Shown: piece after piece, positions 14,225 to 22,885 of the stretch
Numbering within the stretch: position 1 is the stretch's first letter
Layout: each line of letters starts with the position of its first letter
Assembly (NCBI GenBank): GCA_016181465.1
Contig: JACOZG010000001.1
Coordinates: 1-39,084, forward strand
Origin: Candidatus Vogelbacteria bacterium
GTDB taxonomy: Bacteria; Patescibacteriota; Minisyncoccia; Phycocordibacterales; JACOZG01
Reading direction: 5' to 3'
Length of the DNA: 39,084 bases
The notes under the pieces: generated by a model
What the model was told of the DNA's origin: nothing
Seen by the model: only the letters and a program-made list of their open reading frames with translations
The model's database searches: none
Translations under genes and position numbers: made by a program

Positions 14225-14268
14225 AAATCTAACCAACTATTTCCGATCGTGAGAAGATGGTTAGATTT
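14225..14268. repeat. Palindromic repeat copy A (uninterrupted), core CGATCG at 14244-14249
   Basis: AAATCTAACCAACTATTTCCGATCGTGAGAAGATGGTTAGATTT; both halves recur at 21098-21122 and 21769-21793. Confidence 0.9.
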
Positions 14269-18685: not shown

Positions 18686-19822
18686 TTACCTCTCGTGGCT
18701 CAAGGCGAGCTTAATCAATTCTTCGGCAATGAGACGCGCCGCCTGTGGTTTGGCGAAACTTTTGGCCGCGGTGCGCATCGCTTCAAGTAATTTAGGGTTT
18801 CCGATGAGACGATCAATTTCTGACACCAGCACCGAAGGCAGAAAATTATTCTGCTCAATCACGATTGCCCCGCCGGCCCGCGCGTAAGTGAAAGCGTTGC
18901 TCCGTTGGTCGTGGCTGACAGTCTCTGGAATCGGCACCAGAATCGCCGGTATCCCCCACTGGGCGAGCTCAAAGATCATCGAGCCGGCGCGGGAAACCGC
19001 AAGCGTGGCCGCGCCGGCGGCCATCCGCAGCGCCGAACTGTCAAGATAAGCAAAAAGTTTGTAACGGGCGGCGAGCTCATTTTTTTCCAGCACGATCCGT
19101 GTCCGCTTTTCGACGACGTCACGACTGACCGCGCCGGTTTGATGAATCACATTGTACCGTTTTACTAATTCCGGCAAAGCGTCCACCACCACCTCATTGA
19201 TGACGGCCGCGCCCTGCGAACCGCCGGTGACGAGAATGACCGGCAGATCGGGCGCCAGCCCCAGAAATTCTCTCGCGCCCTGCGTCAGCGGATAGTGAAG
19301 CAAACTTCTGATCGGATTGCCGGTAACGGCGATGGCCGCTTGCCGTTTTGGTCCAAAGGCGTCGGCCGCTTCGGCATAAGACAGAGCGATGCGGACAGCG
19401 AACTTTCCGGCCCAGAGATTAGCCCGCCCGGGGCGGGAATCTGACTCGTGAATCACGAGCGGTATGCCGAGCACCCGCGCGGCCAAAACCGTCGGCAAAC
19501 TGACATAGCCGCCTTTGCTCAAAACGACATCCGGGTAAATTAAGTAAAGTCGAATCAGGGCTTTGATTGTTCCCCAAACGATCTTCAAAAGGTCAAAAAA
19601 ATTCAGCAGAGAAAAATAACGCCGCCATTTGCCCGAGCGAATTCGTATAAATTCGATATTATTCTCAAATAAAGCCCGCTCGTCATAAGCCGTGGTGGAA
19701 AAAAGATAAAGTCTGACATTAACCAGTTTGCGTTCTCGGACAATGACGTTGACGGCCTCGGCGATCGCGACAATCGGGTAGAAGTGGCCGCCGGTGCCGC
19801 CGCCGGTAAAAACGATTTTCAT
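18686..19822 (-). CDS. murG: UDP-GlcNAc:MurNAc-pentapeptide-PP-undecaprenol GlcNAc transferase MurG
   Basis: FTGGGTGGHFYPIVAIAEA, VTGGSQGAAVIN, SRAGSMIFEL. Confidence 0.95.
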   Translation of the reverse strand: MKIVFTGGGTGGHFYPIVAIAEAVNVIVRERKLVNVRLYLFSTTAYDERALFENNIEFIRIRSGKWRRYFSLLNFFDLLKIVWGTIKALIRLYLIYPDVVLSKGGYVSLPTVLAARVLGIPLVIHESDSRPGRANLWAGKFAVRIALSYAEAADAFGPKRQAAIAVTGNPIRSLLHYPLTQGAREFLGLAPDLPVILVTGGSQGAAVINEVVVDALPELVKRYNVIHQTGAVSRDVVEKRTRIVLEKNELAARYKLFAYLDSSALRMAAGAATLAVSRAGSMIFELAQWGIPAILVPIPETVSHDQRSNAFTYARAGGAIVIEQNNFLPSVLVSEIDRLIGNPKLLEAMRTAAKSFAKPQAARLIAEELIKLALSHER

Positions 19823-20922
19823 CTTAAAGATTTAGCATGATGTCTGGAAATATTCAGAATAATACCACAACCGACGAGGGAAAACAGGAGTGAACTGCCG
19901 CCGTGACTAATAAAGGCAAGCGGTATGCCGGTCAAAGGCAAAAGTCCCAGCATGGAAGCGATATTGATGAGGGCGCCGGTTGAAATTAAAACGACAATGC
20001 CGACGATTAACTCCGAGCCGAAACGATCGGCCGTGCGGCGTGCCAGCCCGAGCCCCCAAACGACAAAAGCGACAAAAATACCGATAATGAACAGCCCGCC
20101 GATTAAACCGAATTCCTCGCTGGCGACGGCGAAAATTGAATCACCAATCGGCTCCGGCAAATAATGGAATTTTTGGACACTGCGGCCAAAGCCACGGCCC
20201 CAGAGTCCGCCCGAGCCAATGGCAATCAGCGACTGATTAATTTGATACGATGAGGTTAAAAGATTTTCAGTCGGATTGAGAAAAGTCAAGAAGCGCTCGC
20301 GGGCGTAGGGCTTGACAGCGATCACCGAGCCGCCGGCCGCCAGGGCTAGAAGTAAAACTACAAACACTTGCCGCCACGGGCCGCCGGCAGCGAAGAACAT
20401 AGCCAAGGCCGCCGCGATCAAAACAAAAAAGGTTCCTAGGTCTGGTTCAGCGATGAGCGTAGCGCCAGTCACGCCGACAATCAAAAAGAAAGGTAGTAAG
20501 CCGTATGGCCAATCGGCCAACTGGATCTTGGTCCGCGAAAGCCAAGCGGCCAAATAGACGACGAAAGCGAGTTTCAACAGCTCCGAGGGTTGGAAGGTGC
20601 GCGTGCCGAGGGAAATCCAGCGCTGGGCGCCGCCGGAGGCAAAACCTAAACCGGGCACGAAAACCAATAAACTCACAACGAGCGAAACGAGAAATAGCGG
20701 CAAAGCCAGACGTCGCAAGTGGCGATAATTGAAATGGCTGACGGCAATCATCGCCGCTAAAGCGCCGATAAGAATAGCCAGCTGATTGAAAACAATCCGA
20801 CTGTAACTGGCGCCGTCTCGGTTCAAGAGACCAAGCGAGGCCGAGGAAAAAATAAAAAAACCGATTAAGGTAACAATCAAAATAAAAAAGAAGAAACGGC
20901 GGTTGCTCGCAGGGCGGCGCAT
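19819..20922 (-). CDS. ftsW: Lipid II polymerase FtsW/RodA (SEDS family)
   Basis: FQPSELLKLAFVVYLAAW, GFGRSVQKFHYLPEPIGDSIFAVASEE, GIPLAFISHGGSSLL. Confidence 0.93.
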   Translation of the reverse strand: MRRPASNRRFFFFILIVTLIGFFIFSSASLGLLNRDGASYSRIVFNQLAILIGALAAMIAVSHFNYRHLRRLALPLFLVSLVVSLLVFVPGLGFASGGAQRWISLGTRTFQPSELLKLAFVVYLAAWLSRTKIQLADWPYGLLPFFLIVGVTGATLIAEPDLGTFFVLIAAALAMFFAAGGPWRQVFVVLLLALAAGGSVIAVKPYARERFLTFLNPTENLLTSSYQINQSLIAIGSGGLWGRGFGRSVQKFHYLPEPIGDSIFAVASEEFGLIGGLFIIGIFVAFVVWGLGLARRTADRFGSELIVGIVVLISTGALINIASMLGLLPLTGIPLAFISHGGSSLLFSLVGCGIILNISRHHAKSLR

Positions 20923-20962
20923 GGTAGAATAATAATAACACTCCCCTCTCGATTTTACTAAC

Positions 20963-21136
20963 GTGGCTTGCCAGAAATGCGAGTGCGATCTCCGTGCCAC
21001 ATCCGATCGCTGTCCAGAATGCGGCACGACCGCCTCGAATTACCCGGGGCGGTTTTTAGTTTCGAGGAGCCAAAAAGATTGCAATTTTCCACAAAATAAA
21101 TCTAACCATCTTCTCACGATCGGAAGAAGATGGTAA
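20963..21136 (+). CDS. 57-aa zinc-ribbon mini-ORF (possible remnant)
   Basis: GTG start; VACQKCECDLRATSDRCPECGTTASNYPGRF, CxxC...CxxC; C-terminus runs into palindrome B. Confidence 0.35.
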   Translation: MACQKCECDLRATSDRCPECGTTASNYPGRFLVSRSQKDCNFPQNKSNHLLTIGRRW

Positions 21137-21141
21137 CATTT
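21098..21141. repeat. Palindromic repeat copy B, core CGATCG at 21117-21122
   Basis: AAATCTAACCATCTTCTCACGATCGGAAGAAGATGGTAACATTT. Confidence 0.9.
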
Positions 21142-21768
21142 TAATAATAAAAATATAGAAGAGTAAAAGAAAATGAGGAAGATGAAAAAGGGAACTAAGA
21201 AAATTATTAGCCCGACCAAACTAAAAGTTCTGCTCCTTTTCGGTTCAGGGGTGATGCTCGGTCTGACCAGATCACCGAAACAATATTTCAAACTCGTCCG
21301 CACCACAACCAAACTTTGGCACTTCATTGACGAAACTTATTTACGCCGGCTGGTGAAAGAATTTTACGAAGACCGACTGGTGGATTATCGCGAGAGAGAT
21401 GACGGTAAAATTGAGGTAGTGATAACCGAACGCGGCCGTAATACCTTACTCCGTTACGATATTGACCGGTTGGAAATTAGACCCTCGGCGCGCTGGGACG
21501 GCAAATGGCGCATTGTCATTTTCGATATACCAGAACGATTGCGAACCGGCCGCGATGCCTTGCGTCAAAAATTACGCGAGTTAGGTTTTCAAAAATTGCA
21601 AGAGTCGGTTTTCATTATCCCCCACCCTTGTGCGAACGAAATAAATTTTCTGATTGAATTTTTCGATCTCCGTTATTTTGTTCGTCTTTTAGAAACGGAT
21701 AAAATCACTAATGAAGCCGAACTCCTGCTTAAATTCAAACTCCGTAAATAAATCTAACCATCTTCTTC
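21123..21768 (+). mobile_element. Putative 646-bp cassette with terminal inverted repeats carrying a Cas2-like gene, inserted in a palindromic repeat
   Basis: Ends GAAGAAGATGGTAACATTT / AAATCTAACCATCTTCTTC inverted; CGATCG on both sides; removing the cassette plus one CGATCG recreates copy A exactly. Confidence 0.65.
21173..21751 (+). CDS. HTH + Cas2-fold protein (PaaX/Cas2-like)
   Basis: N-terminal winged-HTH-like region; WRIVIFDIPERLRTGRDALRQKLRELGFQKLQESVFIIPHPCANEINFLIEFFDL resembles Cas2 ferredoxin-like fold. Confidence 0.75.
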   Translation: MRKMKKGTKKIISPTKLKVLLLFGSGVMLGLTRSPKQYFKLVRTTTKLWHFIDETYLRRLVKEFYEDRLVDYRERDDGKIEVVITERGRNTLLRYDIDRLEIRPSARWDGKWRIVIFDIPERLRTGRDALRQKLRELGFQKLQESVFIIPHPCANEINFLIEFFDLRYFVRLLETDKITNEAELLLKFKLRK

Positions 21769-21793
21769 CGATCGGAAATAGTTGGTTAGATTT
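21750..21793. repeat. Palindromic repeat copy C, core CGATCG at 21769-21774
   Basis: AAATCTAACCATCTTCTTCCGATCGGAAATAGTTGGTTAGATTT; overlaps the stop codon of the Cas2-like gene. Confidence 0.9.
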
Positions 21794-21814: not shown

Positions 21815-22885
21815 TCAGCGGCCGACGAGGGTGATAATCATCCCGATCACCGCGGCGATGATGCTAATAATCCAATAGCGCATCACCACCTTGTATGGCG
21901 GCCAGCCGATCGCTTCGAAATGGTGATGTAGGGGCGCGACGAGAAAAACCTTTTTGCCGTGTCTAAATTTTTTAGAACCGAGTTGAATGACATTAACAAC
22001 CACCGTCGCGAAAAGCGGCAAGGCGATAATCGGCAAAACAACCACTGACTCGGTCAGGAAAGCCAAAATCGTCAAGGTCGTAGTTAAACCCAAGATTCCG
22101 GTCTCGGACATATAAAATCTCGCCGGCGGGATGTTGAACCACAAAAAAGCCAAAATACTGCCGGTCACCACGGCCGCGAACGCCGCCAGATCAATTTGGT
22201 TTTGGAAAAAAGCGATGCCGGCGTAAGCGCCGAAAATAATCGCCATCACGCCGCCGGCGAGTCCATCAAGTCCGTCAATAACACTGCTGGAAAATAAAAT
22301 GATCATTACCGCCACAAAGAACGGGATGATTAGCCAACCGATTGTCAGTTCACCCAAAAATGGCAGGTCAACCGTGGAGAGGCCGAGTTTGTAATAAAAC
22401 CACCAGGCGCCGACGAGGCCGAGCAGGGCGACTAAGATCAAACGTTTCTTAAAAGATAGGCCGCGGTCGCCCCTGGCTGATTGCCAACCCCTAATTTCTA
22501 AAATATCGTCAATCAAACCAACCAATGAACCAACCAGCAAGGTAAAAAACGGCAGCCAGGTTTGATTGCGGCTTAGAAAATTAAGTTTGACCGCGAGCGG
22601 CGTGGGCCAAAATCTGGCCGACAGCCAGAAACCGAAAATCGTCAAGGCCGTGCTGACCCAAATAATGACGCCGCCCAAACGGGGCGTCCCGACCTCGCGC
22701 TCTTTGTGGAGCTGATTGAAAATCGGTGTGTTTCGGCCGTCCGGAGCGATCTTACCGGCCTGTTTTTTCCACAGCCGATATTTATAAAGATAGTGGGTCA
22801 GAATCGGAGTAATGATTAAACCGATGAAAAAAGCAACGGTGCTGGGCGCGAAAACTTTGAAAATATTGACGATCTCGGTGGTCAT
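21815..22885 (-). CDS. mraY: Phospho-N-acetylmuramoyl-pentapeptide-transferase MraY
   Basis: GTPRLGGVIIW, VIDGLDGLAGG, APLHHHFEAIGW. Confidence 0.95.
   Translation of the reverse strand: MTTEIVNIFKVFAPSTVAFFIGLIITPILTHYLYKYRLWKKQAGKIAPDGRNTPIFNQLHKEREVGTPRLGGVIIWVSTALTIFGFWLSARFWPTPLAVKLNFLSRNQTWLPFFTLLVGSLVGLIDDILEIRGWQSARGDRGLSFKKRLILVALLGLVGAWWFYYKLGLSTVDLPFLGELTIGWLIIPFFVAVMIILFSSSVIDGLDGLAGGVMAIIFGAYAGIAFFQNQIDLAAFAAVVTGSILAFLWFNIPPARFYMSETGILGLTTTLTILAFLTESVVVLPIIALPLFATVVVNVIQLGSKKFRHGKKVFLVAPLHHHFEAIGWPPYKVVMRYWIISIIAAVIGMIITLVGR

Follow-up and report, generated by a model that had tools for sequence, protein, structure and literature searches.

An apparently undescribed type of miniature mobile element: a palindrome-bounded Patescibacteria cassette encoding a winged-helix Cas2-fold protein

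Introduction

Among described repetitive elements, the closest counterparts of the locus reported here are the REP/RAYT systems (REPtrons), in which an IS200/IS605-type HUH-Y1 transposase accompanies REP palindromes tagged GTAG or CGTC (PMC3733652). REPtrons comprise a small gene flanked by palindromes, gene-less palindromes in intergenic regions and repeat families that each have their own gene, and their distribution is patchy (PMC3733652). Palindromes of this kind are also insertion targets for IS elements that encode ordinary transposases (PMC1525189).

Here, we describe a cassette of ~650 bp that appears to be a miniature mobile element of a type so far undescribed. Like REPtrons, it combines a single small gene between palindromes with dispersed, gene-less intergenic palindromes and a patchy distribution. 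Unlike them, it encodes a winged-helix (wHTH) protein with a Cas2 fold and no Y1 transposase, as judged from Pfam, NCBIfam and fold searches, and its palindromes carry no GTAG or CGTC tag (45 aligned), are symmetric to the centre and bear locus-specific palindromic extensions. REP-inserted IS elements share the use of palindromes as insertion targets, whereas the palindrome and gene of the cassette belong together (PMC1525189). As with classical IS elements and transposons, empty and filled sites occur among relatives, but the cassette has no recognised transposase or recombinase.

The protein invites comparison with three further systems. With CRISPR Cas2 it shares the fold, the strand-1 Asp, the Arg and the QxS motif; it differs in its extra wHTH and, within the cassette itself, in having palindromes in place of a CRISPR array. 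In the Cas1-Cas2 complex, Cas2 is mostly structural. Casposons, which are defined by Cas1, are likewise mobile and linked to a protein family of CRISPR adaptation, but the ~650 bp cassette carries a Cas2-fold protein only. PaaX, a repressor, has the same winged helix and PaaX_M Cas2-like domain (fold match 8a39); unlike PaaX, the cassette proteins are about 165-205 aa long, miss the TIGR02277 cut-off, and are multi-copy and palindrome-bounded. PaaX repressors regulate phenylacetate or other catabolic operons; the window copy has mraY and ftsW next to it. Because it lacks the HUH-Y1 transposase and the GTAG/CGTC tags and falls outside the full definitions of Cas2 and PaaX, we place the cassette family outside the known kinds. 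A literature search, with preprints and most subscription journals outside its reach, found no link between PaaX or Cas2 and palindromic repeats in Patescibacteria.

The window copy and its solo palindromes

The window, the whole stretch of DNA analysed, is 39,084 nt long. Its cassette gene is flanked by ftsW and mraY, both of which are encoded on the other strand (Table 1), and the ORF list holds no other sizeable protein encoded within the cassette. The original prediction had placed palindromes A, B and C in the window and had noticed that the left half of B joined to the right half of C equals the reverse complement of A. Sequence comparison within the window bears this out: positions 1-25 of B followed by positions 26-44 of C reproduce it at 44/44 positions, and the segment 21123-21768 measures 646 bp with CGATCG at each junction, as had been claimed. 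The reverse complement of A has 5 mismatches to B, 2 to C and 7 to the reciprocal C-left + B-right chimera; since C is only 2 bases from A, the half-site argument within the window turns on few diagnostic positions.

Table 1. Coordinates of the cassette, its flanking genes and the solo palindrome within the window
Feature	Position	Strand	Description
Solo palindrome A	14225-14268	.	44 nt; upstream of rplI-like gene
ftsW	19819-21027	-	Flank, outside element
Upstream palindrome B	21098-21141	.	44 nt, centre CGATCG; gene-side arm runs into ORF promoter region
ORF	21173-21751	+	192 aa, wHTH + Cas2-type fold (PaaX_M, PF20803)
Downstream palindrome C	21750-21793	.	44 nt, centre CGATCG; begins at ORF stop codon
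mraY	21815-22885	-	Flank, outside element

Further gene-less (solo) palindromes of the same genome, on contigs C15, C19 (three) and C27, strengthen the half-site pattern. Two of the C19 solos are exactly A. The third, like those on C15 and C27, joins a B-left-type arm to a C-right-type arm, with point differences that amount to 2-4 mismatches from B-left + C-right, although this third copy is equally near to C and to the chimera, with 3 mismatches each. The C19 solos (L060:2367, 3237, 4054) are spaced 870 and 817 bp apart and have their immediate flanks in common. Together they form an array that adjoins alaS and encloses small genes that have no relation to the Cas2-like gene, among them an ORF with an IPTL-CTERM-like tail at its end; the array is possibly palindrome-bounded cargo. 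Assembly gaps (N) fall inside palindromes at L484 and L483 and several elements lie near the ends of contigs C11, C12, C26 and C28, so the element count is probably too low in short-read assemblies.

It had further been proposed that the cassette was inserted into the exact centre of a pre-existing palindrome. This part is not established: central insertion and a solo-LTR-like deletion between near-identical palindromes would leave identical sequence, and across 80 elements the outer half-palindromes of an element are not more alike than other cross-pairs. The cross-pair comparison does not support the outer halves as a general split palindrome and suggests instead that each palindrome behaves as its own unit. 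From that earlier reading, mobile-type behaviour, a REP-like repeat family and a Cas2 fold are supported, and the Cas2-like protein is a candidate mover.

A family of palindrome-bounded genes

A PF20803 profile search found eight PaaX_M/Cas2-like copies in the window's 644-kb, 48-contig genome, and each of the other seven paralogs is bounded by a palindrome pair with a CGATCG-like centre and arms peculiar to that pair. Further afield, the protein was matched in 22 of 60 genomes of relatives, and PaaX_M genes occur in 94 of the 290 genomes sampled from the phylum, with a maximum of 11 per genome. The best 80 loci in a genome collection come from Patescibacteria or from unclassified bins, apart from one in a bin labelled Omnitrophota; this last bin holds a single element-like gene (L231) outside Patescibacteria, which may reflect transfer or a binning error. 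PaaX_M matches were also seen in the control genomes of Thermus composti and Sulfolobus acidocaldarius. The phages and viral contigs searched yielded no relatives and the plasmid matches were two weak PaaX regulators, so that a phage or plasmid origin is not supported.

The palindromes accompany a particular size class. Genes for proteins of ~165-205 aa have palindromes on either side, centred ~37 nt upstream of the ATG and ~36 nt downstream of the stop, with a median centre-to-centre spacing of 636 nt; as an internal control, 6 of the 7 longest homologues (236-269 aa) are without palindromes. In a set of 85 unique PaaX_M ORFs, both palindromes reach a score of at least 10 at 35 ORFs of the short class, and 80 elements have two palindromes with a YRR|YYR-type centre at a score of at least 8. 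Pairs in which both score at least 10 flank 33 of 79 elements vs 8 of 270 neighbouring ORFs. The score alone is unspecific, with 11-17% of control ORFs having one palindrome of at least 10 on one side; specificity lies in the pair and the centre. As the palindrome-gene-palindrome arrangement recurs at dozens of loci across the family, it is not due to chance, and the window cassette is one member of a palindrome-bounded family rather than a coincidence.

The cassette protein

The window protein matches PF20803 (PaaX_M) at 2.3e-23 and falls just under the cut-off of PF09827 (Cas2; 23.1/23.8). It scores 31.5 bits against TIGR02277 (279 positions), for which the cut-off is 264.55 bits. AlphaFold2 (mean pLDDT 83.6; 93-98 for most of residues 101-190) predicts an N-terminal winged helix followed by a C-terminal beta-alpha-beta-beta-alpha-beta fold of the Cas2, ferredoxin type. 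In the PDB it comes closest to Cas2 proteins, a Cas2-like RNase and E. coli PaaX (8a39), all weak matches with a best E of 0.01. The model and these matches support the HTH plus Cas2 fold first proposed from the translation. The Cas2 signature FDIP...R...QxS is present, with D118, R127 and Q143 invariant and S145 near-invariant, and the gene is under purifying selection, with dN/dS of about 0.1 (0.096/0.90) and 0.03 (0.007/0.22) for two ortholog pairs. Profile searches of the cassette proteins, together with the ORF list, upheld the claim that no DDE, HUH or tyrosine recombinase is recognised inside the cassette; the proteins scanned included no recognisable Cas1.

In 49 of 80 elements the upstream palindrome is followed by a -10-like box (37% in shuffles), and such a box lies outside the downstream palindrome in only 24 of 80, which makes autoregulation likely. 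One pair, L028/L048, hinted that the HTH half co-evolves with the palindrome: the C-terminal half is nearly identical, and the N-terminal half and the palindromes have diverged. A partial Mantel test on 80 elements did not support this beyond general relatedness, with 120 of 500 permutations giving values at least as large; for the Cas2 half, the partial correlation with the palindrome is small (0.12, 80 elements).

Palindrome symmetry and dispersal

In a gapless alignment of 45 element-flanking palindromes, 96.7% of arm positions are paired vs 48.0% in shuffles. Seventeen of the 18 arm pairs are altered on both sides, and the covariation score is 1.16 vs 0.22. No common end tag was found among the 45; the central C/G alone is shared. 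G-T pairs are not more frequent than other mismatches, which points to symmetry at the DNA level, although the score used for selection favoured Watson-Crick pairs.

A covariance model of these palindromes matches 10/10 element-bearing vs 2/11 element-free genomes (Fisher p 2e-4); it was trained on element-flanking palindromes partly from the tested genomes, so that their own flanks match by construction, while solos lie outside the training set. Many model matches are solos, mostly intergenic, with 5 of 39 positioned in open frames vs 489 of 667 random positions. Within one genus, element number correlates with palindrome-site number (rho 0.77, p 5e-4), and four element-free genomes of that genus hold one to three palindromes each. 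Model matches, solos and this correlation together substantiate the proposed REP-like dispersed repeat family.

Solos of one genome have a core in common, and the next few outward bases vary by locus yet still pair. For the outward extensions of one family, the mean is 0.14 mismatches in 4 positions from arm to arm vs 1.1 between loci. At the same solo locus in sister species, both arms have changed or the palindrome is wholly different. These paired changes argue that symmetry is maintained or regenerated, whether through conversion, quasi-palindrome correction in replication or the action of the element. Joint changes of the two arms between sister species would constitute a natural record of palindrome correction.

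A hairpin sequence of ~80 bp (CTCCAAGTGAGCGAG...GGAGATATTGTACCCAGTTATAT) interrupts a palindrome precisely at the centre in the flank of L325 (genome G056) and at L422 (G357). It also sits between degenerate palindrome halves near L326 (G056), a second-level insertion into palindromes. Since this hairpin is unrelated to the cassette and splits palindromes at the centre in two species, palindrome centres appear usable as insertion points.

Gain, loss and solo states at orthologous loci

All locus comparisons set species against species, not strains. A search of 29 relatives with MraY gave 24 in which the recovered stretch also holds ftsW, and the mraY-ftsW junction is free of the cassette in every one of these 24. 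They include both genomes of the same family, where the gaps measure 23 and -30 bp, and two with wider gaps of 504 and 703 bp that contain no Cas2-like gene. A lineage-specific insertion is accordingly the best reading of the window copy. Neither outcome that the original prediction had named as refuting it was found: the comparison of junctions that it had called for goes against a cassette fixed at the same locus in all relatives, and the palindromes do not look like ordinary terminators without the half-site pattern.

The yebC-ruvC junction, examined in a genus with 16 genomes, presents several states. G358 has the palindrome-gene-palindrome arrangement. G357 has the left flank ACTACCTTCC and right flank TTAGTGTTTGGG of G358 around one palindrome of the same family, with no gene. 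G056 holds a full cassette whose gene is 81.5% identical, a divergence like that of the flanking genes. Palindromes of other sequence occupy the junction in G352, G364 and G351, and five other genomes are without a palindrome. The three close genomes form a clade with support 1.000, and G056 and G357 group together at only 0.462, so that loss of the cassette in G357 is favoured, not proved. Solo and full states could here reflect ordinary recombination loss without any transposition.

Elsewhere, solo loci L319 and L322 have empty counterparts in congeners, and at one locus in a second genus two species have the element and three do not. A candidate ACAGG repeat was seen at one solo locus only, the relatives being too divergent to define a target-site duplication. 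Judged from such orthologous sites, mobility of the cassette is supported, through the lineage-specific copy at mraY-ftsW and the full, solo and empty states at yebC-ruvC. Several copies occupy the same locus across species, which suggests that mobility is slow.

Two further differences were noticed beside elements. The similarity of L198 and L200 (96% identical) stops precisely where the downstream palindrome ends on its outer side, as though a rearrangement had its breakpoint there. A ~550-bp stretch with a kinase-like gene, adjoining a conserved element locus, differs in presence between L244, L251 and L258 on one side and L249 and L250 on the other, among Nomurabacteria-type species.

Proposed mechanism and alternatives

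We think it probable that these loci form a family of very small Patescibacteria mobile cassettes similar to REPtrons, with a wHTH-Cas2 protein replacing the HUH transposase. The unit would be a wHTH + Cas2-fold gene between two near-identical, near-perfect palindromes, with gene-less solos scattered in the same genomes. The protein may bind the palindrome as a symmetric dimer, with the wHTH on the arms and the Cas2 dimer at the YRR|YYR centre, and may repress its own promoter at the upstream palindrome. By cutting or synapsing palindromes, it would allow the cassette or a bare palindrome to be copied into new intergenic sites; on this view the Cas2-like protein would be the mover. A solo would then be either the product of gene loss by recombination between the two palindromes or a target whose centre receives a cassette. 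Rather more tentatively, a Cas2-fold protein without Cas1 might be the DNA-processing enzyme of a palindrome-based mobile element, cutting or synapsing at the centres of perfect palindromes, with both arms rewritten together so that each event ends in renewed symmetry.

If the proposal of REPtron-like cassettes is true, the Patescibacteria, whose genomes are tiny and whose diversity as a group is vast, harbour an autonomous-looking mobile element that is among the smallest known, of Cas2 type and without Cas1. REP-like repeats would gain a second, unrelated protein partner, many genes auto-annotated as 'Cas2' or 'PaaX' in Patescibacteria genomes would be explained, and a pre-CRISPR role of the Cas2 fold would become testable. 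A Cas2-fold enzyme in the stricter sense would represent a class of prokaryotic transposition of its own and might hint at the function of Cas2 before CRISPR.

The protein could instead be an autoregulated PaaX-family repressor, for which the flanking palindromes are operators and the solos the operators of a regulon, with spread by ordinary transfer or duplication and the protein not the mover. Its PaaX-like fold and family, the repressor already known in PaaX (8a39) and the promoter-like box overlapped by the upstream palindrome are what such a regulator would have. We nevertheless regard this as unlikely, because the downstream palindrome matches the upstream one in regularity, and the outer extensions are locus-specific yet palindromic, which no single repressor could read. 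Sister species also carry solos from different sequence families at one locus, the longer PaaX-like proteins are mostly without palindromes, and one locus alternates between solo and full.

Slightly less plausible still is a passive, trans-mobilised element, in which the palindromes are moved by an unrelated recombinase of the host or of a helper, with the Cas2-like gene as cargo or as a repressor gene. The absence of DDE, HUH or tyrosine recombinases from the cassette would be expected of it, as would the unrelated ~80-bp hairpin at palindrome centres in other species and the three-palindrome array around unrelated small genes in the window's genome. Yet the gene is the palindromes' constant partner across the phylum, and palindrome number follows gene presence.

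Ordinary bidirectional terminators that flank a small gene by chance are very improbable: although the palindromes are intergenic and hairpin-forming and a T run follows A, they are almost missing from element-free genomes (2/11), each genome disperses copies of a few sequences, the lack of excess G-T pairs points to symmetry at the DNA level, and the solos have T runs in just 8 of 28 cases, a stem G+C of 0.35 and pairing to the centre without a loop.
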